Below are positions 53,886 through 64,000 of a stretch of DNA of 64,000 nucleotides, piece by piece (position 1 is the stretch's first letter; the number at the start of each line of letters is the position of its first letter). The notes under the pieces were generated by a model, which was not told the origin of the DNA, did not search any database, and saw nothing but the letters and a program-made list of their open reading frames with translations. A program made the translations under genes and the position numbers. Source of the stretch: Ralstonia sp. 25mfcol4.1 (lineage in GTDB: Bacteria > Pseudomonadota > Gammaproteobacteria > Burkholderiales > Burkholderiaceae); contig NZ_FNJO01000004.1 in NCBI RefSeq assembly GCF_900104095.1, positions 62,001 to 126,000 on the forward strand, read 5' to 3'.

Positions 53886-54545
53886 TTACTGCTCGGCCTT
53901 GCAGAGGCCGATCTGCTGGGCCATCAGCACCAGATCGGCAAAGGTGCGGGCGCGCATCTTGCGCATGGCCTGGCCACGGTGGATCTTCACCGTCACCTCG
54001 CTGATGCCGATCTCCCCGGCGATCTGCTTGTTCAGCAGGCCCGAGACGGCCATGCCCATGACTTCCGCCTCGCGCGGCGTCAGCGTGGCGTAGTTGCCGC
54101 GAATCTCCTCAACCTTGCGCAGGCCCCGGCGTCGCAGCCGGTCTTTCTCGATGGCCGCCGACACGGCGTCGAGCAGGTCCTGGTCGCGGAACGGCTTGGC
54201 CATGAAATCCTCGGCGCCCGCCTTCATGGCGGTCACCGTCATGGCGATATCGCCGTAGCCGGTCATGAAGATGATCGGGATATGCACGCCCATCTGCGCC
54301 AGCCGGGTCTGCAGGTCGAGCCCGCTCGGACCGCGCAGTCGCACGTCAAGCACCAGGCAGCACGGCACATCAGGCAAGCGGTATTCCAGCAGCTCGGCTG
54401 CCGAGCCGAACAGCGCCGTCTGCATCCCCACCGATCGAAACAGGTTGCCCAGGCCGGCGCGCAGCATGGCATCGTCGTCGACGATCAGCACCATCGCGTC
54501 GTCGGCGGCGCCAGTACCGGCAGGGTCCCCGCTCTGGGATGTCAC
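53886..54545 (-). CDS. FixJ/NarL-type response regulator (receiver plus LuxR HTH)
   Basis: A 219-residue regulator starting at GTG 54545 behind GGAGA; ATG 54575 is an alternative. The receiver has the acidic pocket VLIVDDDAM, phosphoacceptor Asp67 (LVLDVRLRG), FMTGYGD and Lys in FMAKPF. The LuxR HTH follows a linker (TLTPREAEVMGMAVSGLLNK, ISEVTVKIHRGQAMRKM). No histidine kinase adjoins it; the nearest kinase begins at 63128, beyond the hydrolase-transport gene run that starts 604 bp away in the opposite direction. It is the probable activator of that run. Confidence 0.92.
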   Translation of the reverse strand: MTSQSGDPAGTGAADDAMVLIVDDDAMLRAGLGNLFRSVGMQTALFGSAAELLEYRLPDVPCCLVLDVRLRGPSGLDLQTRLAQMGVHIPIIFMTGYGDIAMTVTAMKAGAEDFMAKPFRDQDLLDAVSAAIEKDRLRRRGLRKVEEIRGNYATLTPREAEVMGMAVSGLLNKQIAGEIGISEVTVKIHRGQAMRKMRARTFADLVLMAQQIGLCKAEQ

Positions 54546-55149
54546 GGCTCTGTTCTCCAAGGTCCTTGAGGGCATGTTGCGGTGCCGCCCGAAGCACCAG
54601 GACAGTGGAGCGTGGCCGGGCGGCAGGTCGGGCGGAATCCGCGCGCATGAGGGCGGACATGGCCCGGCGCGCGTCCAGCATTTCAGCACAGCACGCGCCG
54701 CTTCGCCACCCATACCATTGGCTGAGTGGACAGCGCCGCCGAAACGGCCCCGCAAAACCCTGCTTGTCGGCGGGCCCGCCAATACCTATACCAAGTGTGT
54801 ATGGCGAAGCCGCAAGCGCCCGCCTACCCTGCGCGTGCCTTGTTACCCCCATCGTCCCAGTTTCCCATGTCCGGTCCTGTCCACTGGCGTGATCGCAAGC
54901 CTGCCGGCCGCCGCTTGCCGGGCGCCCGCAAGTTCGCTCGCGAACGCCGCGACGGACCGCTAATCCGTAGATACGTCCGCCTAATACGATGGGCCAATGG
55001 CTGCATACGCATGTGCCGTCTAGTCTTGCGTCGGGTTGCATCTTGCCTGTCCCCAGGCATGACGACGTCGATGCAACCGGTGCCGAACGGGCCAGCGCAC
55101 GCTGCGCCGTCCGCGCCAGCCCCAACCTTCGTTTCAAGGAATTTTCATC
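54546..55149. promoter_or_regulatory. 604-bp divergent regulatory region
   Basis: The longest gene-free stretch in the window separates the FixJ-type regulator from the YcaC-like gene. AATACC and ATACCAAG boxes occur at 54781-54795. A pair of CTAAT boxes, CTAATCCGTAG and CTAATACGATGG, occurs near 54960-54995. Related AATACC/CTTGGTAT boxes recur at 62493-62505. I see no gene or RNA here. Binding by the FixJ-type regulator is inferred from position. Confidence 0.45.
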
Positions 55150-55836
55150 ATGTCGAACCCCAAGCTCGAAGTACTGACACCGCAGAACAGCCAGCTGATC
55201 ATCATCGACCACCAGCCGCAGATGGCTTTCGGCGTGCAATCGATGGACCGTCAGGCGCTGAAGAACAACGTGGTGGGCCTGGCCAAGGCCGCGAAGATCT
55301 TCAACGTGCCGACCACCATCACCACCGTCGAAAGCGAATCGTTCTCGGGCTACACGTACCCGGAAATCCTCGACGTGTTCCCGAATGCCAAGACGCTGGA
55401 ACGCACCTCGATGAATTCCTGGGACGACCAGAAGGTGCGTGATGCCCTGAAGGCCAACGGCCGCAAGAAGGTGGTGGTCGCGGGTCTGTGGACCGAAGTC
55501 TGCAACACCACGTTTGCCCTGTGCGCCATGCTGGAAGGCGACTACGAGATCTACATGGTGGCCGACGCCTCGGGTGGCACCACCAAGGAAGCCCACGACT
55601 ACGCCATGCAGCGCATGGTGCAGGCCGGCGCCGTGCCCGTGACCTGGCAGCAGGTGCTGCTGGAATGGCAGCGCGACTGGGCGCACCGCGACACCTACGA
55701 CGCCGTGATGAAGCTCGTCAAGGAACATTCGGGCGCCTACGGCATGGGCGTGGACTACGCCTACACGATGGTCCACAAGGCCGCCCAGCGCACGGCCACG
55801 CCGCATGAATCCATCGCGCCGGTGCCGGCCCGCTAA
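55150..55836 (+). CDS. isochorismatase-family cysteine hydrolase (YcaC-like)
   Basis: A 228-residue cysteine hydrolase. The triad is Asp20 (IIIDHQPQMAFGV), Lys107 (GRKKVVVAGL) and Cys118 (WTEVCNTT). The segments VESESFSGYTYPEILD and VADASGGTTKEAHDYAMQRM match the YcaC subgroup, whose physiological substrate is unknown. The ribosome site AAGGA is good. First gene of the plus-strand run to 62464 and cytosolic by lack of a signal. A hairpin follows its stop. Confidence 0.93.
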   Translation: MSNPKLEVLTPQNSQLIIIDHQPQMAFGVQSMDRQALKNNVVGLAKAAKIFNVPTTITTVESESFSGYTYPEILDVFPNAKTLERTSMNSWDDQKVRDALKANGRKKVVVAGLWTEVCNTTFALCAMLEGDYEIYMVADASGGTTKEAHDYAMQRMVQAGAVPVTWQQVLLEWQRDWAHRDTYDAVMKLVKEHSGAYGMGVDYAYTMVHKAAQRTATPHESIAPVPAR

Positions 55837-55878
55837 CAGCCCGCCATCGACATTCAATTTATTTGAATGAAATGTACA

Positions 55879-55908
55879 GCGCGAGTGCGGCAGGCACCGC
55901 ATTCGCGC
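55879..55908 (+). terminator. 12-bp-stem hairpin without T-run
   Basis: GCGCGAGTGCGG-CAGGCA-CCGCATTCGCGC pairs over 12 bp with one G-U. No T-tract follows, so this is either a weak terminator or attenuator between the YcaC-like and alpha/beta hydrolase genes, or an mRNA-stabilising hairpin. Confidence 0.5.
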
Positions 55909-56008
55909 CGCTAAAGTTCTCCCCATCGCAGCACGGCCGGCGAATAGCCACGCAATACGCCGGGCCGATAACTCAAACAATCTGAACTCATTCTTGCAGG
56001 GAAATCTC

Positions 56009-56998
56009 ATGTCCAACGTCGCCCCCCAATCCCAGGCCGAACAACACGACGCGTCTCGCCGCAAGCTGCTGGTCGGCAGCACGATGGGCGCAGCCGCTGC
56101 CACCGTGGCATCGATGGCCGCGCTGACGCCGGCCGCTGCGGAAGCCGCACCGGCCGCGGGCCGCCAGTCGAAGCAGGGTCACTACGTGACCACCAAGGAC
56201 GGCACGCGCATCTTCTACAAGGACTGGGGTTCGGGCCGTCCGGTGGTGTTCTCGCACGGCTGGCCGCTGGACGCCGACGCCTGGGACGCCCAGATGCTGT
56301 TCCTGGTGCAAAAGGGCTTCCGGGTGATCGCCCACGACCGCCGCGGCCATGGCCGCTCGGACCAGCCGGCGCAAGGCAACGACATGAACACGTACGCCGA
56401 TGACCTGGCCGCCGTGCTCGACGCGCTGGACATCAAGGGTGCCACGCTGGTCGGGCACTCCACCGGCGGCGGCGAAGTGGCCCGCTACATCGGCCGCCAC
56501 GGCACGAAGCGCGTGGCCAAGGCCGTGCTGATCGGCGCCGTGCCCCCGACCATGGCCAAGAGCGCCGCCTACCCGAACGGCCTGCCGCTGGAAGTGTTCG
56601 ACAACATCCGCAAGGGCGTAGCTGAGAACCGCTCGCAGTTCTACAAGGACCTGGCCACGCCGTTCTTCGGCTTCAACCGCCCCAACGCCAAGGTATCGCA
56701 GGGCACCATCGACGCCTTCTGGGCGCAGGGCATGGCCGGCGGCATCCTGGGCCAGTACCTGTGCATCAAGGAGTTCTCGGAAGTGGACTACACCGAAGAC
56801 CTGAAGAAGATCGACGTGCCCACGCTGATCCTGCATGGCGACGACGACCAGATCGTGCCGATCGACAACTCAGCCAGGCTGTCGGCCAAGATCGTCAAGA
56901 ACGCCACGCTGAAGGTCTACCCCGGCGCTTCGCACGGCATGTGCGTGATCAACGCCAACCAGGTCAATGCCGACCTGCTGGCTTTCCTGAACGCCTGA
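56009..56998 (+). CDS. Tat-exported alpha/beta hydrolase (non-heme haloperoxidase-like)
   Basis: A 329-residue hydrolase with a twin-arginine leader ([19 protein letters not shown], long Ala-rich core). The fold is that of cofactor-free chloroperoxidases: [39 protein letters not shown] and nucleophile Ser151 in [10 protein letters not shown]. The acid lies in HGDDDQIVP and the base in ASHGMC. Such proteins act as esterases or perhydrolases. Periplasmic export by Tat is unusual for this group. It is followed 13 bp later by a second Tat-exported hydrolase. Confidence 0.92.
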
Positions 56999-57011
56999 GG
57001 CGCCTGAACCC

Positions 57012-58958
57012 ATGTCAGTCACCCGCCGGCAATTCATCGCCTCGGCCGCCGCGCTTGGCGCGGCAGCCTCTTCGGAGCTTTTCGCCATGTCACCGAACCC
57101 GACTCCCGATCTCATCCTGGTCAACGGCAAGTTCACCACCCTTGACAAGTCCAACCCGCAAGCTGATGCCGTGGCCATCCAGGACGGCCGCTTCATCAGC
57201 GTGGGCACGCGCGACGAGATCATGAAGCTCGCGGCTGCCAAGACGAAAGTGATCGACCTGAATGGCCGGCGGGCCATTCCCGGGCTGATCGACAGCCACA
57301 TGCACATCATTCGTGGCGGCCTGAACTACAACATGGAACTGCGCTGGGACGGCGTGCGTTCGCTGGCCGACGCCATGCGCATGCTCAAGGACCAGGTTGC
57401 CCGCACGCCCGCACCGCAATGGGTGCGCGTGGTCGGCGGCTTCACCGAGCACCAGTTCGTCGAAAAGCGCCTGCCGACCATCGAGGAACTGAACGCGGTG
57501 GCGCCCGATACGCCGGTGTTCATTCTGCACCTGTACGACCGCGCCATCCTGAACGGCGCCGCGCTGCGCGCCGTGGGCTACAACAAGGACACCCCGAACC
57601 CGCCGGGCGGCGAGATCATCCGCGACAAGGCCGGCAATCCCACCGGCCTGCTGCTGGCCAAGCCCAACGCGACCATCCTGTACGCCACGCTGGCCAAGGG
57701 CCCGAAGCTGCCGCCCGAGTACCAGAAGAATTCCACGCGCCACTTCATGCGCGAGGTGAACCGCCTGGGCGTGACCGGCGTGATCGACGCCGGCGGCGGC
57801 TACCAGAACTACCCCGAGGACTACAACATCATCGAGGAGCTGCACAAGGAAGGCCAGCTCACGGTGCGCCTGGCGTACAACCTGTTCACGCAGAAGCCCA
57901 AGGAAGAACTGAGCGACTTCAAGACCTGGACTTCCACGGTGAAGCCGGGCCAGGGCGACGACCTGTACCGCCACAACGGCGCCGGCGAAATGCTGGTCTA
58001 CACGGCCGCCGACTTCGAAGACTTCCGCGTCGAGCGCCCCGACATGCCGCCGTCGATGGAAGCCGACCTGGAGCCGGTGATCCGCCTGCTGGCCGAAAAA
58101 CGCTGGCCGTGGCGCCTGCACGCCACGTACGACCAGACCATCGACCGCGCGCTGGACGTCTACGAGAAGGTGGCCAAGGACGTGCCGTTCAACGGCCTGA
58201 ACTGGTTCTTCGACCACGCCGAAACGATCTCCGACCGCAACATCGACCGCATCGCGGCACTGGGCGGGGGCATCGCGGTGCAGCACCGCATGGCCTACCA
58301 GGGCGAGTATTTCGTCGAACGCTACGGCGCCAAGGCTGCCGAAGCCACGCCGCCGATCAAGAAGATGCTGGAAAAAGGCGTGAAGGTTGGCGCCGGCACC
58401 GATGCCACGCGCGTCGCGTCGTACAACCCGTGGGTGTCGCTGTACTGGCTGACCACCGGCAAGACCGTGGGCGGCATGTCGATGTATCCGCAGGCCAACC
58501 TGCTCGATCGCGAGACCGCGCTGCGCCTGTGGACCGAAGCCAACACGTGGTTCTCGTCCGAAGAAGGCAAGAAGGGCCAGATCAAGGCTGGCCAGCTGGC
58601 CGACCTGGCCGTGCTGTCGGCCGACTACTTCGCCGTGCCGGGCGACGACATCCAGGACATCACGTCCGTGATGACGGTGCTGGGCGGCAAGGTGGTCTAC
58701 GGCGACAGCGAGTTCGGCCCCCATTCGCCCGACATTCCGCCGGCCATGCCCGACTGGTCGCCGGCCCGCCATGGCAGCCAGTACCAGCCGCGCCCGACGG
58801 CCAAGGCTAAGCAGCTGGCGATGAACACCGCCTGCGGCTGCGCCAGTTCGTGCGGCGTGCACGGCCATGCGCATGCCAAGGCGTGGACGTCCAGCGTGCC
58901 GACGTCGGACGAAAGCAGCTTCTGGGGCGCCCTGGGCTGCTCCTGCTGGGCGTTCTGA
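57012..58958 (+). CDS. Tat-exported YtcJ-like amidohydrolase with Cys/His-rich tail
   Basis: A 648-residue amidohydrolase-superfamily enzyme with a twin-arginine leader (VTRRQFIASAAALGAAASSE). The metal-site HxH is His96/His98 (GLIDSHMHI). WRLHATYDQTIDRAL, FDHAETISDRNI and GAGTDATRVASYNPW carry later ligands, and GQLADLAVLS is the returning beta-sandwich. After residue 600 an extra tail has Cys608, Cys610 and Cys614, then His617, His619 and His621, and ends GCSCWAF (Cys643, Cys645). The tail looks like an added metal or redox site. The substrate is probably an N-acyl compound or cyclic amide. Confidence 0.92.
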   Translation: MSVTRRQFIASAAALGAAASSELFAMSPNPTPDLILVNGKFTTLDKSNPQADAVAIQDGRFISVGTRDEIMKLAAAKTKVIDLNGRRAIPGLIDSHMHIIRGGLNYNMELRWDGVRSLADAMRMLKDQVARTPAPQWVRVVGGFTEHQFVEKRLPTIEELNAVAPDTPVFILHLYDRAILNGAALRAVGYNKDTPNPPGGEIIRDKAGNPTGLLLAKPNATILYATLAKGPKLPPEYQKNSTRHFMREVNRLGVTGVIDAGGGYQNYPEDYNIIEELHKEGQLTVRLAYNLFTQKPKEELSDFKTWTSTVKPGQGDDLYRHNGAGEMLVYTAADFEDFRVERPDMPPSMEADLEPVIRLLAEKRWPWRLHATYDQTIDRALDVYEKVAKDVPFNGLNWFFDHAETISDRNIDRIAALGGGIAVQHRMAYQGEYFVERYGAKAAEATPPIKKMLEKGVKVGAGTDATRVASYNPWVSLYWLTTGKTVGGMSMYPQANLLDRETALRLWTEANTWFSSEEGKKGQIKAGQLADLAVLSADYFAVPGDDIQDITSVMTVLGGKVVYGDSEFGPHSPDIPPAMPDWSPARHGSQYQPRPTAKAKQLAMNTACGCASSCGVHGHAHAKAWTSSVPTSDESSFWGALGCSCWAF

Positions 58959-59007
58959 CGCCGGCTGCATCCCCGCCATCCGCATTGCATTGAACCGGAG
59001 ACCCGTC

Positions 59008-59442
59008 ATGCCCTATACCTCTTCCCCGCTGGCGGCGGCCGGCGACACCACGCACCGGCTGCCGCGCTGGATGCACTGGATCGCCCTGCTGCTGCTGTGC
59101 GCGGCGTACCTGCAAGGCGGGCTCGTCAAGCTGTTCGACTTCTCCGGCGCGGTGGCCGAGATGCAGCACTTTGGCCTGAGCCCAGCCGTGCCGATGGCGG
59201 CGGCCACGATCGCGCTGGAACTGGCCGCGCCCGCCATGATCCTGCTCGGCGTGTACCGCTGGCTCGGCGCGCTGGCGCTGGCCGCCTTCACGCTGGCCGC
59301 CACCTTCATGGCCAATCGCTTCTGGAGCGCCCCTCCCGATGCTTACTTCATGCTGATGAATGCGTTCTTCGAGCACCTTGGGCTGGTAGGGGGCTTCCTG
59401 CTGGTCGCCTGGCACGACCTGCGCACGCGGGGCCGCGCATGA
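59008..59442 (+). CDS. DoxX-family membrane protein
   Basis: A 144-residue protein with four membrane helices. MHWIALLLLCAAYLQGGLVK and LFDFSGAVAEMQHFGLSPAV are the DoxX signature region (Gly-Lys then F..G/A.A.M..FGL). DoxX/DoxD proteins link to thiosulfate:quinone oxidation or to oxidative-stress complexes. It is followed with a 4-bp overlap (ATGA) by an MFS gene, so they are translationally coupled. Confidence 0.88.
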   Translation: MPYTSSPLAAAGDTTHRLPRWMHWIALLLLCAAYLQGGLVKLFDFSGAVAEMQHFGLSPAVPMAAATIALELAAPAMILLGVYRWLGALALAAFTLAATFMANRFWSAPPDAYFMLMNAFFEHLGLVGGFLLVAWHDLRTRGRA

Positions 59443-61055
59443 CGCAGGCCGCCGCAACCTCCACGGCCAAGCCGTCCGGCTCGTTCGCGCCGCTGGCCCA
59501 GCCAACATTCGCCGTCCTCTGGGTGGCCACGATCCTCGGCAATATCGGCAGCTTCATGCGCGATGTGGCCAGTGCCTGGCTGGCCACCGACCTGTCGTCG
59601 TCACCGGCCGCAGTCGCCACCATCCAGGCGGCGGCGACGCTGCCGGTCTTCCTGCTCGCCATTCCGGCGGGCGTGCTGTCCGATATCCTGGATCGCCGCC
59701 GCTTCCTGATCGTGATCCAGATCGCGCTGGCGGCAGTCAGCGGTTCGCTGGCCTTCCTGTCGTGGCAGAACGGGCTGACGATCGAGATCCTGATTGCGCT
59801 GGCGTTTGCCGGCGGTATCGGCGCGGCGATGATGGGGCCGACCTGGCAGTCCATCGTGCCCGAACTCGTGCCCGCGAATACGCTGCGGCAGGCCGTGGCC
59901 CTGAACGGCCTGGGCGTCAATATCGCGCGCGCCATCGGCCCCGCCATGGGCGGCCTGCTGCTGGCCGGGCTGGGCGCGGCCGCGACCTACTGTGCCGATC
60001 TGATCAGCTATGTGTTCGTGATCGGCGCGCTGATCTGGTGGAAGCGCCCAGCACAGCCGCGCGATCCGCTGCGCGAGCATTTCTTCAGCGCCTTCCGCGC
60101 CGGGCTGCGCTTCACGCGGGCCCATAGCAAGCTTCATATCGTGCTGCTACGGGCGGCCGTGCATTTCGCGTTCGGCAGCAGCGTCTGGGCCCTGCTGCCG
60201 CTTGTCGCCAAGCAGTTGCTGCACGGCGGCGCCGGGCTCTACGGCGTGCTGCTGGGCGCGGTCGGCGCCGGCGCGATTCTGGGCGCGCTGTCCATGCCCA
60301 CGCTGCAGAAGCGGCTCGACGGCGACGGCGTGATCCTGGTGTCCGCCATCGCAACCGCCGTGGTCATGGCCGGGCTGTCGTTCGCCCCGCCGGTCTGGCT
60401 GGCGCTGCCGCTGCTGCTGGTGCTGGGCGCCGCGTGGATCCTGGCGCTGACCACGCTCGGCGGTGCGGCACAGGCCATCCTGCCGAACTGGGTGCGCGGC
60501 CGTGCGCTGGCTGTCTACCAGATGGTATTCAACGGCGCGCTGGCCGGCGGCAGCCTGCTGTGGGGCTTTGTGGCCCAGGCCCTGGGCACGCCGCACGCGC
60601 TGCTGATTGCCGGCGCGGGCCTGGTCGTGGCGGCCCTGTTGCTGAACCGCATCCGCCTGCCGCGCGGCGAGGAAGACCTGGGGCCGGCACATCACTGGCC
60701 GGAACCGGAGATGGCCGACGACATCGCCCACGATCGCGGCCCGGTCATGATCCTGATCGAATACTGCATTCCGGCGGCCAACCGGGAGGCGTTCCTGCGT
60801 GCCGTCCATCACCTGTCCGAGGAACGCCTGCGCGACGGTGCCTTCAACTGGGGCGTCATGGAAGACCCGGCCAACCCCGAACTGCTGACCGAGTGGTTCC
60901 TGGTCGAGTCGTGGGCCGAACACCTGCGCCAGCATCGACGCGTACCGAACGCCGATGCCGACCTGCAGCGCGACGTGGCCCGGTTCCACGTGGCCAGCGA
61001 GCCGCCGCGTGTGCGGCACCTGCTGGGCGTGGGGCTGCCCGGCGCCACGCGCTGA
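59439..61055 (+). CDS. MFS transporter with C-terminal dimeric-barrel domain (MFS_3 type)
   Basis: A 538-residue protein. Residues 1 to about 410 are a 12-helix MFS of the enterobactin-exporter-like group (TFAVLWVATILGNIGSFMRD; IPAGVLSDILDRRRFLIVI; ILPNWVRGRALAVYQMVFNG). The last 110 residues form a soluble alpha/beta ferredoxin-like domain resembling antibiotic-biosynthesis monooxygenase proteins (VMILIEYCIPAANREAFLRA, LTEWFLVESWAEHLRQHRRV). MFS plus this tail is seen in MFS_3 members. The tail may sense or modify the cargo. Its start overlaps DoxX by four bases. Confidence 0.9.
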   Translation: MTQAAATSTAKPSGSFAPLAQPTFAVLWVATILGNIGSFMRDVASAWLATDLSSSPAAVATIQAAATLPVFLLAIPAGVLSDILDRRRFLIVIQIALAAVSGSLAFLSWQNGLTIEILIALAFAGGIGAAMMGPTWQSIVPELVPANTLRQAVALNGLGVNIARAIGPAMGGLLLAGLGAAATYCADLISYVFVIGALIWWKRPAQPRDPLREHFFSAFRAGLRFTRAHSKLHIVLLRAAVHFAFGSSVWALLPLVAKQLLHGGAGLYGVLLGAVGAGAILGALSMPTLQKRLDGDGVILVSAIATAVVMAGLSFAPPVWLALPLLLVLGAAWILALTTLGGAAQAILPNWVRGRALAVYQMVFNGALAGGSLLWGFVAQALGTPHALLIAGAGLVVAALLLNRIRLPRGEEDLGPAHHWPEPEMADDIAHDRGPVMILIEYCIPAANREAFLRAVHHLSEERLRDGAFNWGVMEDPANPELLTEWFLVESWAEHLRQHRRVPNADADLQRDVARFHVASEPPRVRHLLGVGLPGATR

Positions 61056-61104
61056 TCCTCACATTTGCCGTTTTGTCGTTTTGTTGTTGTATTGCGAGAC
61101 CATC

Positions 61105-61383
61105 ATGAAGATCTACCTTGTCTCTCTTGGCGCCGGCATCCTGGTCGGCATCATCTATGCCCTGATGCAGGTGCGTTCCCCGGCGCCGCCGGCCGTGGCG
61201 CTGATCGGCCTGCTGGGCATGCTGATCGGCGAACAGGTGGTGCCGCCGATCAAACGCATGATTGCCGGCGAGCCCGTGACCCTCTCGTGGTTCCATTCCG
61301 AGTGCGTGCCGAAGATCACCGGCACGCCCGGGCCGGCCACGCTGACGGCAAAGAACGATGAAAAGACCGATGCGGCGCACTGA
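61105..61383 (+). CDS. XapX-domain (DUF1427) small membrane protein
   Basis: A 92-residue protein. The XapX core is MKIYLVSLGAGILVGIIYAL and RSPAPPAVALIGLLGMLIGE, two membrane helices joined by the Arg-Ser-Pro-Ala-Pro-Pro turn. A soluble tail includes SWFHSECVPKITGT. The family has no established function and is usually encoded near hydrolases or transporters. Its 3-prime end overlaps the porin start by 26 bp. Confidence 0.9.
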   Translation: MKIYLVSLGAGILVGIIYALMQVRSPAPPAVALIGLLGMLIGEQVVPPIKRMIAGEPVTLSWFHSECVPKITGTPGPATLTAKNDEKTDAAH

Positions 61384-62464
61384 CGGGCTTGCGCTGCTGG
61401 CGGCGCTGGCCGCACCTGCATCGGCGCTGGCGGCCGACTCCGTGACGATCTACGGCCGGCTGAATACCGCCATCGAATACTCGCGCGCCAGCACGGCCAC
61501 CGACGGCACGGCGCTGGGCAGCGTGGTCCGGCAGACCAACTACCGGTCGGTATGGGGCCTGCGCGGCGAGGAAGGGCTGGGCGGCTCCCTCAAGGCCGTC
61601 TGGCAGATCGAAAGCAACCTGTCGATCGACAACGGCCAGGGCGGCATCGCCACGCGCAATTCGCGCATCGGCCTGCAGGGCGACTATGGCCTCCTGTTCA
61701 TGGGGCACTGGCACACGCCCTACACCGAGTCGACCATGGCGTACGACCCGTACTATCCGACCACGGCCGGCTACATGGCGCTGATCGGCAACGGCTCGAC
61801 GTCCAGCTCCGACAACGTGCAGGACACCAGCTCGTTCGACCGCCGCCAGAAGAACATCCTGCAGTACCGCACGCCGCAGCTGGCCGGTGTCAGCGTCTGG
61901 CTGGGCTGGGGCCTGCCCGAGGAGAAAAACGCGGTAGCGCGCAACCCGGCGCTGTATTCGGCCGCCGTGGTCTACGACCAGGGACCGCTGAACGCCACGC
62001 TGGCCTACGAGATCCACCAGCACTACCAGGCCGCCGGGCGCAATGACGATGCACTGAAGGTGGGCGTGGCCTACCAGCTGTTCAAGGGCACGCGCATTTC
62101 GGCGCTCTACGAACACCTGCACTACCGCACCGACACCGGCGACCTGCAGCGCAACGGCTACTATGCGTCGCTGGTGCAGCAGCTGGGCCCGGGCAGCGTG
62201 CGGGTGGGCTTCGCGCTGGCCGCCAACGGCACGGGGTCATCCACCGATACGATCGGCTTCTTCCGCAGCGGCCCGGAGACCGGCGCGACGCAGTTCACGG
62301 TCGGCTACGACTATCCGCTGTCCAAACGCACGGCGCTGTTCGTCTTCTACAGCCGCATCAACAACAAGAAGAACGCGATCTACGACTTCGCCATCAACGA
62401 GCTGGGCGTCAGCGCCGGGGCCGACCCGCAGACGTTCGCCCTGGGCATGCGGCACAACTTCTGA
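61358..62464 (+). CDS. trimeric Gram-negative porin
   Basis: A 368-residue outer membrane porin of the Burkholderia/Neisseria type (start ATG 61358 or 61370). A signal peptide (cleavage ALAADS) is followed by SVTIYGRLNTAIEYSRAS, the family's first strand. RSVWGLRGEEGLGGSLKAVW and the L3 region follow, and the protein ends GMRHNF with the terminal Phe needed for assembly. Last gene in the hydrolase-transport run, so it likely admits the substrate. Confidence 0.94.
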   Translation: MKRPMRRTDGLALLAALAAPASALAADSVTIYGRLNTAIEYSRASTATDGTALGSVVRQTNYRSVWGLRGEEGLGGSLKAVWQIESNLSIDNGQGGIATRNSRIGLQGDYGLLFMGHWHTPYTESTMAYDPYYPTTAGYMALIGNGSTSSSDNVQDTSSFDRRQKNILQYRTPQLAGVSVWLGWGLPEEKNAVARNPALYSAAVVYDQGPLNATLAYEIHQHYQAAGRNDDALKVGVAYQLFKGTRISALYEHLHYRTDTGDLQRNGYYASLVQQLGPGSVRVGFALAANGTGSSTDTIGFFRSGPETGATQFTVGYDYPLSKRTALFVFYSRINNKKNAIYDFAINELGVSAGADPQTFALGMRHNF

Positions 62465-62490
62465 GGCCCGATGCCACGCACGGGGCGTAA

Positions 62491-62508
62491 CTAATACCTT
62501 GGTATGGG
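62491..62508. promoter_or_regulatory. AATACC/GGTATG inverted box
   Basis: CTAATACCTTGGTATGGG contains 5-bp arms ATACC/GGTAT around TT, between the porin stop and the receiver gene. AATACC and CTTGGTAT also occur in the regulatory region near 54781-54795, hinting at one regulator for both sites. Confidence 0.35.
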
Positions 62509-62707
62509 TCCGCTCCGATTCGTGGCGGAGCGGGCCCGAAGCGAATATCCTTGTCGGTTTCCGCGCGGACCATGGTTGCTGCGCCGGCTTCCGCTGTCGG
62601 CGGAACACCGGCAATACCACCGTATGATGTTGAGCATGGCCCGGCGGGATTATGCTGTGCGCAAGCGGTGGCCCCTGTCACCGCTCCAGACTTCTCAAGG
62701 ATTCCGT

Positions 62708-63088
62708 GTGACTGCCACCCCCGTGATTGCCATTGTCGACGACGACGCTTCCGTCCGGCATGCCATGGGCAGACTGGTGCGCTCGCTGGACATGACCGCG
62801 GAACTCTACGGCGGCGGCGCCGAACTGCTGGCATCCGCATCGATCGCCGGCATCCACTGCGTGATCACCGACGTGCAGATGCCCGGGATGAATGGCTTTG
62901 CCCTGTGCGAGGCGCTGCGCGCCCGGGGGCACCGGATGCCCGTCATCTTCATGACGGCCTTCGCACAGGAAGGCTACGAACAGCGCGCCCGCGACGCCGG
63001 CGCGGCCTGTTTCCTGAACAAGCCCTTCCAGGATACGGATATCATCGACTGCATCGAGAACGCGCTGCAGATCCGCCCCGGAAACTAG
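62708..63088 (+). CDS. single-domain response regulator (receiver only)
   Basis: A 126-residue receiver with no output domain, starting at GTG 62708 behind AAGGA. Acidic pocket VIAIVDDDASVR, phosphoacceptor Asp55 (VITDVQMPGMNG), FMTAFAQEG and Lys in FLNKPF are all present. It is a CheY/FixJ-receiver-like phosphate relay or sink. The multidomain kinase gene starts 39 bp downstream, so they are a likely pair. Confidence 0.9.
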   Translation: MTATPVIAIVDDDASVRHAMGRLVRSLDMTAELYGGGAELLASASIAGIHCVITDVQMPGMNGFALCEALRARGHRMPVIFMTAFAQEGYEQRARDAGAACFLNKPFQDTDIIDCIENALQIRPGN

Positions 63089-63127
63089 GCCCACTCCCAG
63101 GTCTCCTTTTTTCTCCGGCGCCGCCCC

Positions 63128-64000
63128 ATGACGACCGACGAATCCAGCCTGCCGAATCACCTCCGGAACGGCCCGCAAGACGCCCTTTCCCTGTCGGAAT
63201 ACCGCTTCGAGCCCTGCCTGCAGGACGGCATCGTGGCACTCTCGCGCGGCGTGCATGCCCGCACCGGCAGCACGCTGATGCTGGCACATGCGGCGTCCCC
63301 GCGCGCGGAGCCCGATGCCGCGCGGCGCATCGAGACCGAATTCGCATTGCGCGGACTGCTGCGCACCGAATGGGCGCTGGTGCCGCGCACCCTCGCGCGC
63401 TACCGCCAGGGCGTGGCGGCCGTCTACGACGACCACGCCGGCACGCCGGTATCCTCCCTGGCAGGACAGCGACTGCCCGTGGCGCAGGTGCTGTCGATCG
63501 CGCTGGGGGCCAGCGCGGCGCTGAAGGCAGTACACGAGTGCGGCCTCGTGCATCGGGCCATCACGCCGTGCAGCCTGTTCGTCGATGACGCCGGGCGCTG
63601 CCGGATCGGCCGGTTCGGCTTTGCCATCCACGCCTCGCAGCCCGACGCCGACCGCCCCGCTGTGACGACGCTGGCGGGCGAAGCCCCGGCGTACATGTCG
63701 CCGGAGCATACCGGCCGTACCCGGCATGCCATCGACGCACGCAGCGATCTCTACGCGCTGGGGGTCATCCTCTATCAGTTGCTGACCGGGCAATTGCCGT
63801 TCGGCGTCAGGAATCCGGACGACCTTGGCGAGTGGATTCACGGCCACGTCGCTGGCACGGCGCTGCCGCCCGATGCCATCGCGCCCGACGTGCCACCCAT
63901 GCTCTCGCGAATCGTGCTCAAGCTGCTGGAAAAGAGCCCGTCGCGCCGCTACCAGACCGCAGCCGGACTGCACGCCGACCTGACCCGGTGCGTCGACGCA
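63128..64000 (+). CDS. multidomain sensor kinase, N-terminal degenerate Ser/Thr kinase domain (truncated by window end)
   Basis: The frame is open from ATG 63128 through base 64000 (291 codons). Residues about 25-285 have a protein-kinase fold: GLVHRAITPCSLFVD for the catalytic loop, RFGFA for DFG, APAYMSPEHTG for the activation-loop end, and SDLYALGVILYQLLTGQLPF for helix F. Catalytic residues are lost: the HRD Asp is Ala144, the DFG Asp is Arg162 and the VAIK region reads LMLAHAAS. It is thus a pseudokinase. This N-terminus heads large kinase-AAA-GAF-histidine-kinase proteins, which the remainder outside the window probably completes. Confidence 0.82.
   Translation, partial: MTTDESSLPNHLRNGPQDALSLSEYRFEPCLQDGIVALSRGVHARTGSTLMLAHAASPRAEPDAARRIETEFALRGLLRTEWALVPRTLARYRQGVAAVYDDHAGTPVSSLAGQRLPVAQVLSIALGASAALKAVHECGLVHRAITPCSLFVDDAGRCRIGRFGFAIHASQPDADRPAVTTLAGEAPAYMSPEHTGRTRHAIDARSDLYALGVILYQLLTGQLPFGVRNPDDLGEWIHGHVAGTALPPDAIAPDVPPMLSRIVLKLLEKSPSRRYQTAAGLHADLTRCVDA

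Follow-up and report, generated by a model that had tools for sequence, protein, structure and literature searches.

The 64,000-nucleotide stretch of DNA analysed here (hereafter, the window) spans positions 62,001 to 126,000 of contig NZ_FNJO01000004.1 (labelled G000:C20) in the genome of Ralstonia sp. 25mfcol4.1 (6.3 Mb, 44 contigs) and ends in a block of genes encoding hydrolases, membrane proteins and signal transduction proteins that, as judged by sequence comparison, is a real, conserved and apparently self-regulated operon, the core of which recurs in many other Proteobacteria. Comparison with relatives shows that the core is conserved as a unit and that a FixJ-type regulator, a lone receiver and a large kinase accompany it in several lineages. 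The same type of comparison shows that the DNA upstream of the metabolic cassette and the DNA upstream of the receiver-kinase gene pair carry one motif at one spacing to a -10-like element.

Composition and conservation of the block

All the genes that an earlier sequence-only reading had named in the block are present as open reading frames and are matched in profile scans. The minus strand carries the gene for a FixJ/NarL-type response regulator (53886..54575, from the ATG at 54575; a GTG at 54545 is also a possible start), in which a receiver domain with D77 is joined to a GerE helix-turn-helix domain and which is the proposed activator. The plus strand carries a seven-gene cassette that encodes a YcaC-like cysteine hydrolase of the isochorismatase fold (55150..55836), an alpha/beta hydrolase of the cofactor-free chloroperoxidase/arylesterase group (56009..56998), a YtcJ-type amidohydrolase (Amidohydro_3; 57012..58958), a DoxX-family membrane protein (59008..59442), an MFS_3 transporter (59439..61055), the small membrane protein XapX/DUF1427 (61105..61383) and a Gram-negative porin (Porin_4; 61358..62464). 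The cassette is followed, on the same strand, by genes for a lone receiver domain (62708..63088; GTG start, D55) and for a sensor kinase of 1851 amino acids, the N-terminal part of which lies in the window (63128..64000; the gene ends at 68683, L009:11129-16684).

Two gene pairs overlap, as had been read from the sequence, DoxX and MFS by ATGA (-4) and XapX and the porin by -26. The other gaps within the cassette are 172, 13, 49 and 49 nt, and 243 nt precede the receiver gene and 39 nt the kinase gene. A longer DoxX frame, from 58867, would overlie the 3' part of the amidohydrolase gene; this frame aligns in at least 10 loci, yet there over conserved amidohydrolase DNA, and the annotation of three plasmid records has DoxX begin no earlier than the amidohydrolase stop, so that the start is best placed at 59008, an amidohydrolase/DoxX overlap being neither proven nor disproven. 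Between the porin and receiver genes, a 12-pair hairpin lacking a T run (62506..62537, plus strand; -29.6 kcal/mol for 61 nt, z -3.2) is a possible end of the cassette transcript. A scan for consensus promoters and terminators yielded 1 promoter against 1.3 expected and 6 terminators against 5.2 expected.

Relatives of the block were taken as the best 80 of at least 588 confirmed amidohydrolase stretches in the genome collection (31 betaproteobacterial loci, hereafter beta loci, and 49 others, mostly alphaproteobacterial), an anchor that selects for the amidohydrolase and not for its neighbours. These loci were searched using tblastn (E up to 1e-5) with 13 proteins from the window and its flanks, including the anchor, and a protein was counted as present when a match over half of the query, or over more than 150 amino acids in the case of the kinase, was found within 10 kb on either strand. 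The beta loci contain YcaC (29), XapX (29), DoxX (25), FixJ (20), the kinase (15), MFS (15), the porin (14), the receiver (14) and the alpha/beta hydrolase (13). The corresponding counts for the 49 other loci are 44 for YcaC, 40 for XapX, 39 for DoxX, 34 for the alpha/beta hydrolase, 29 for MFS, 17 for FixJ, 12 for the kinase, 9 for the receiver and 0 for the porin. The controls, encoded in the flanks of the block, were found in 2 beta and 0 other loci (ketopantoate reductase-like protein), 2 and 0 (HSP70-like protein) and 3 and 1 (a downstream enzyme of the thiamine-dependent type). YcaC lies on the same strand as the amidohydrolase in all 73 loci where it is present, XapX in 68 of 69 and DoxX in 62 of 64.

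The core genes also co-occur across the family. In a survey of 120 genomes (E limits 1e-3, 1e-100 and 1e-40), from which the Ralstonia genome itself was left out (n=119), the amidohydrolase was detected in 42 genomes, XapX in 48 and YcaC in 45. The amidohydrolase and XapX are found together in 41 genomes (the other cells of the table being 1, 7 and 70; Fisher 2e-23), and so are the amidohydrolase and YcaC (1, 4 and 73; Fisher 4e-26). Within 6 kb of the 56 places occupied by the amidohydrolase, XapX is found at 44 (0.28 expected) and YcaC at 44 (0.26 expected), and neither at 8. Taken together, the neighbourhood counts and the co-occurrence rule out chance adjacency of the genes. The sequence-only reading had taken the block for a single stimulus-controlled unit, a claim that a lack of conservation in relatives would have refuted; the core genes are in fact conserved there, and the view of a conserved unit that brings its own signalling is supported. 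Less well supported is the full set, several members of which, including the regulators, are missing in about half of the relatives.

The nearest named relatives at the cassette locus, among the matches listed, belong to Cupriavidus. In C. metallidurans CH34, tblastn detects FixJ, the stretch from ycaC to XapX and the receiver. Amidohydrolase matches were also detected on 385 of 72,556 plasmid records, in particular, from Rhizobium (102), Sinorhizobium (83) and Pantoea (52). Recurring extra neighbours, according to approximate cluster counts that are based on crude gene calls, include DUF1275/YoaK, an alginate-export-type channel, LysR regulators and glyoxalase-like proteins; members of the outer-membrane channel cluster are encoded in 20 of the 80 loci, and the one member scanned matches Alginate_exp. 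In four loci (L035, L036, L038 and L039), several ycaC, xapX or amidohydrolase pieces lie near the cassette, partly in the opposite orientation, which suggests duplication and decay. Further ycaC pieces are located at contig ends of the Ralstonia genome (G000:C20:431860-432339, C43:653131-653610 and C15:2-235), as if the assembly were broken at a repeated ycaC-bearing element.

The Cys/His tail of the amidohydrolase and the other cassette proteins

The amidohydrolase belongs to Amidohydro_3 (450.9 bits against a cut-off of 29.7) and has a Tat-like (twin-arginine translocation) N-terminus; the best fold matches of its modelled core are the YtcJ-like metal hydrolases 3icj and 3igh of the PDB, which its N-terminal part also matches by sequence. 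Unlike these enzymes, it ends in a conserved tail (58785..58955, plus strand), identified by alignment, with C608, C610, C614, H617, H619, H621, C643 and C645. The last approximately 45 residues read C608-x-C610-x3-C614-x-V-H617-x-H619-x-H621 and, at the very end, F637-W638-G-x-x-G-C643-x-C645-W-A-F, and the pattern over the relatives is CxxxCxVHxHxH...FWGxxGCxC[WF]A. The tail cysteines and histidines are invariant in an alignment of 47 rows (the window and 46 of the 80 loci), and both tail parts are present in 78 of the 80 loci (78 of 79 complete ones), one locus being cut at a contig end and L063 being the sole complete locus without the tail, with its last match in another frame. No match to the tail was found in Pfam or the PDB.

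The tail tends to go with the cassette. Among 20 more distant copies of the family, 12 have both tail parts and 8 have neither; the 8 copies without YcaC or XapX nearby include 7 tail-less ones and one with the tail (L170), and L174 is tail-less although YcaC lies just under 6 kb away. This association may reflect shared ancestry. Among 11 plasmid loci, the Cys/His part is present in 10 and both parts, as written above, in 8, with a variant end in two. The two parts can separate, since the amidohydrolase of L135 keeps the FWGALGCACWAF end and has lost most of the Cys/His cluster. The DNA pattern for FWxxxGCxCWA has 16 matches in 14 of 398 Pseudomonadota genomes, including that of the Ralstonia strain, and the reversed control has 0; all 16 matches are C-termini of amidohydrolases, and a sorting signal shared by unrelated proteins is therefore rejected. 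The tail probably binds metal or docks the amidohydrolase to a membrane partner (XapX or DoxX).

The other cassette products are assigned with varying precision. The alpha/beta hydrolase, which has a GHSTGGGE nucleophile elbow at residue 149, belongs to the cofactor-free haloperoxidase group by sequence match and by this elbow, with the activity predicted; its best PDB match is 1a8s (E 1.3e-120), and, like non-haem chloroperoxidase F and related arylesterases (1a8s, 3hea), it is matched over residues 61-328 but differs from them in having a Tat-like signal at the N-terminus. The YcaC-like protein is a member of the isochorismatase superfamily (102.8 against a cut-off of 27) and shares the fold of the YcaC cysteine hydrolase (PDB 1yac, 4wgf; PMC4519933) over residues 11-179; unlike YcaC itself, it stays below the equivalog cut-off of NF041461 (140.9 against 310 bits). 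XapX matches both TIGR03510 (66.2 against 27.8) and DUF1427 (127.1 against 27.1). The transporter matches MFS_3 (PF05977) over its full length (685.4 against 27, residues 14-529 of 538) and TIGR00900 below its cut-off. The C-terminal dimeric barrel that had been read on this transporter is thus part of the normal PF05977 model, and a special fusion is rejected.

The DoxX protein invites comparison with the Gig operon of C. metallidurans, which is reported to include a DoxX-like membrane protein, GigT (PMC10304878, PMC11647585), and a DUF2063 partner, GigB (PMC10304878). The two systems share a DoxX-family membrane protein, and identity is rejected because no DUF2063 partner was detected among the ten proteins scanned with Pfam.

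Signalling proteins and candidate operators

The window FixJ is a member of the FixJ/NarL group, with receiver and GerE scores of 87 and 65.2 bits, over the Pfam cut-offs, and does not reach the FixJ equivalog NF006900 (170.4 against 255). The kinase consists of a protein-kinase fold (119-280, second half of the model only), AAA_16 (318-506), GAF (1315-1463), PAS (1517-1599), HisKA (1630-1695) and HATPase_c (1740-1850) domains; the latter two score 33.9 and 76.7 bits, over the cut-offs, and, with an HEVNQPL H-box containing H1638, place the protein among the histidine kinases. Both the Walker A motif (GPSGVGKS) and the H-box are intact. In the protein-kinase fold, HRD and DFG are missing, with VHRAITPCSL and GRFGF in their place, which rules out a working Ser/Thr kinase in the window protein and makes "trifunctional", the usual label for kinases of this build, misleading here. 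The fold is degenerate at both motifs in the L011, L014, L015 and L021 kinases as well; the loss is not uniform because the L013, L016 and Cronobacter kinases retain the HxD loop, although not DFG.

The nearest regulatory parallels are the FixL/FixJ and TodS/TodT-type two-component systems with FixJ-LuxR output. As in these systems, a PAS kinase with an HEVNQPL H-box is combined with a FixJ-like GerE regulator and a proposed operator that overlaps the -35 region; unlike them, the window kinase has a degenerate Ser/Thr-kinase fold, an AAA ATPase and a GAF domain ahead of PAS, and the window set has a second, lone receiver and a FixJ below the equivalog cut-off. The order of protein-kinase fold, AAA ATPase, GAF, PAS and histidine kinase is that of the fungal Mak/Chk1-type and cyanobacterial HstK hybrid kinases. 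The window kinase has the same domain order and a weak PF25503 match, and differs from these kinases in the absence of HRD and DFG and in its linkage to a metabolic cassette.

The sequence-only reading had described FixJ as a regulator without a kinase. On Cronobacter dublinensis plasmid pA84-1, genes for FixJ, a kinase, a lone receiver, two XapX proteins and YcaC are contiguous, with a divergent group encoding the amidohydrolase, DoxX, MFS and the alpha/beta hydrolase, so that FixJ does not appear to be kinase-less as a system. The pA84-1 kinase has the same full architecture as the window kinase (43% over 1865 columns), and Pantoea agglomerans has the same arrangement, without FixJ in the stretch examined. 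Kinase, FixJ and receiver matches lie directly ahead of YcaC in seven alphaproteobacterial loci (L040, L046, L048, L056, L074, L075 and L079). Where the beta loci have FixJ, its gene usually diverges from ycaC on the other strand, and only 4 of these 20 loci show a same-strand match. Of three non-beta kinases scanned, two carry a MASE4 membrane sensor (L056 and L059) and one has PAS (L085); no receiver was matched in L059, and the L085 kinase lies downstream. Thus, FixJ, the lone receiver and the kinase appear to form a single signalling set. Compared with the Cronobacter kinase, the window kinase reaches 1353 bits; compared with a second kinase encoded in the Ralstonia genome, it reaches 610.6 bits (34%), which fits co-inheritance of kinase and cassette, the comparison being rough because the scores come from different programs.

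This second kinase shares the multidomain build of the window kinase (34% identity over the matched part) and is encoded 22 kb further along the contig, at G000:C20:153079-157398 (L164). About 7 kb past the window kinase, a second FixJ paralogue (G000:C20:138066-138758, minus strand; L010:5066-5758) is divergent from a gene that reads as a Tat-type alpha/beta hydrolase (139682-140734, plus strand; L010:6682-7734), a pair that resembles a small echo of the layout of the block.

Alignment of 15 ycaC upstream regions revealed one conserved block. Among L011-L034 and the window, the motif [CG]TAATAC[GC]A is present in 20 sequences, upstream of ycaC and, in L032 and L034, upstream of the amidohydrolase gene; in the window, the proposed FixJ operator is CTAATACGATGGGCCAATGG (54981..55000, plus strand), the only 0-mismatch match in the genome. 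It is followed, 40 bases from its start, by the -10-like TAGTCT (55021..55026), and TAnnnT is found at exactly +40 in all 20 operator-bearing regions, with every other offset from 15 to 59 represented in fewer than 4 of 20. A -10 element at +40 places the operator centre near -42.5, where LuxR/FixJ-type activators contact polymerase, a geometry fitting a class-II activator. Among the 31 beta loci, 18 have both FixJ within 10 kb and the operator, 11 have neither, one (L018) has FixJ only and one (L023), where the contig ends ahead of the site, has the operator only; this association holds even with FixJ at 42-50% identity.

An operator-like site with TATGCT at +40 (62611..62656, plus strand) precedes the receiver gene, in the geometry of the ycaC promoter, and this geometry recurs in 8 of 13 loci (L011, L012, L014, L015, L016, L021, L022 and L041). 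The combined promoter pattern occurs twice in the window (54983 and 62613) against 0.00 in 100 shuffles, a figure that is no independent test because the pattern was composed from these two sites. The palindrome CTAATACCTTGGTATGG (62491..62507, plus strand) may be an additional operator upstream of the receiver gene; similar palindromes are present in L012, L014, L016 and L021, and none was seen in the nearest relative, L011. Across the genome, the operator pattern has, apart from the ycaC site, 23 matches at 2-3 mismatches (reversed-pattern control, 15), and a search with the palindrome gave, besides the two best-strand readings at 62491, two other sites with 3 mismatches (control, 5). The proposed regulon therefore looks local. 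In the gap between ycaC and the amidohydrolase gene of pA84-1 (L195:8673-8979), the direct repeat [CG]GTATA[AC] is present four times at a spacing of exactly 16 bp; four copies were reached in 0 of 2000 mononucleotide shuffles. Pantoea has one copy, a number reached in 131 of 2000 shuffles.

Proposed function and its alternatives

On balance, we lean towards a self-contained, signal-inducible operon in which a FixJ-kinase-controlled cassette acts on a small ester, amide, lactone or oxidised compound, and inducible detoxification or scavenging of such a compound is the most likely function. Under this scenario, a cytosolic signal would reach the kinase through its AAA, GAF or PAS portion, and the protein-kinase fold at the N-terminus probably serves as a binding or dimerisation module. 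The kinase would autophosphorylate at H1638 and pass the phosphate to D77 of FixJ, and phosphorylated FixJ would bind the TAATAC[CG]A operator, the centre of which lies near -42.5, turning on the seven-gene cassette and, in a positive feedback, the receiver-kinase pair; the lone receiver would drain or buffer phosphate. The porin could be the entry route of the compound, the chloroperoxidase-like hydrolase, the tailed amidohydrolase and the YcaC-like hydrolase could cleave it, and the MFS pump could export the compound or its product; XapX and DoxX would be the partners of the core enzymes in the membrane.

Several observations weigh against this reading. The set is modular, with MFS in 44 of the 80 loci, the alpha/beta hydrolase in 47, FixJ in 37, the kinase in 27 and the receiver in 23; the FixJ counts include matches at 26-30% identity (for example, L046, L057, L076 and L090), and none of the 80-locus counts are independent trials because the loci are related. 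The window receiver is 31% identical to the Cronobacter lone receiver, no closer than to the Cronobacter FixJ (34%), and the DoxX of the Cronobacter plasmid is just 29% identical to the window DoxX. The operator patterns were written after the alignment had been viewed, the site ahead of the receiver gene was not found in 5 of the 13 loci (L013, L017, L024, L027 and L030), and the beta-type operator was not seen in the alphaproteobacterial loci. The AlphaFold model of the amidohydrolase (mean predicted local distance difference test score, pLDDT, of 68) leaves the tail unresolved, with pLDDT under 50, and the substrate is guessed from the enzyme families. Finally, by a crude scan with a home-made rule, 42 of 80 amidohydrolases (11 of 31 beta, 31 of 49 other) and 19 of the 44 alpha/beta hydrolases scanned (9 of 11 beta, 10 of 33 other) carry a Tat signal, and the porin is not conserved. 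The division of labour among outer membrane, periplasm, inner membrane and cytosol that had been read into the block is accordingly weakened, because Tat signals and porin are not conserved, and may still hold for the window strain.

A different function, which we regard as doubtful, is protection against oxidative or electrophile stress: the enzymes would remove peroxides, quinones or their products, with the kinase as an oxidant sensor. The fungal Mak/Chk1 kinases, similar in build to the window kinase, are the parallel for such a sensor, and a below-cut-off match of the window kinase to the CHK1-like TPR model points the same way, as do the placement of the alpha/beta hydrolase in the cofactor-free haloperoxidase group, the glyoxalase-like and esterase-like neighbour genes and the single-locus neighbours Dps (L192), pirin (L190), an NAD(P)H-dependent oxidoreductase (L187) and a VOC protein (L189). 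Such neighbours are, however, found in few loci, and haloperoxidase-group proteins are often plain esterases. Unlikely, too, is a catabolic module for one natural compound that serves as a carbon or nitrogen source, such as an amide, lactone or ester from plants or soil: a porin with three hydrolases and the frequency of the amidohydrolase on Rhizobium, Sinorhizobium and Pantoea plasmids would suit it, but the top 40 neighbour clusters include no oxidation, ring-cleavage or assimilation family, and the transporter matches export-like MFS models (PF05977 and, below cut-off, TIGR00900). That FixJ, the cassette and the receiver-kinase pair lie side by side and yet act independently, as the 243-nt gap and hairpin ahead of the receiver gene and the absence of the regulators from many relatives might indicate, is very improbable given the motif and spacing common to both upstream regions, the full co-location in another class (the Cronobacter plasmid) and the FixJ-operator association in the beta loci.

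Extending the signal-inducible operon beyond Ralstonia, we tentatively propose, as a possibility short of an expectation, an undescribed inducible detoxification system, often borne on plasmids, that would have at its core XapX, DoxX, a YcaC-like hydrolase and an amidohydrolase whose last residues form a new metal module (CxxxCxVHxHxH...GCxC[WF]A), with sensor kinases of differing build (degenerate-kinase/AAA/GAF/PAS or MASE4) swapped in beside FixJ and the lone receiver. No description of the cassette was found in full-text literature, a search in which subscription papers were mostly missing and preprints were not covered, so that absence is unproven. The core set is common, on plasmids and in at least 588 genome stretches, and this search found no described function for it. 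If the proposal is correct, the tail would be a second metal site or would dock the amidohydrolase to XapX or DoxX, in which case the substrate would be handled at the membrane. As a compact, nearly invariant Cys/His motif, the tail is a target for metal analysis and a possible genome marker for the system, and the short operator, the promoter geometry and the candidate kinase-regulator pair would make the inducer findable with a reporter.

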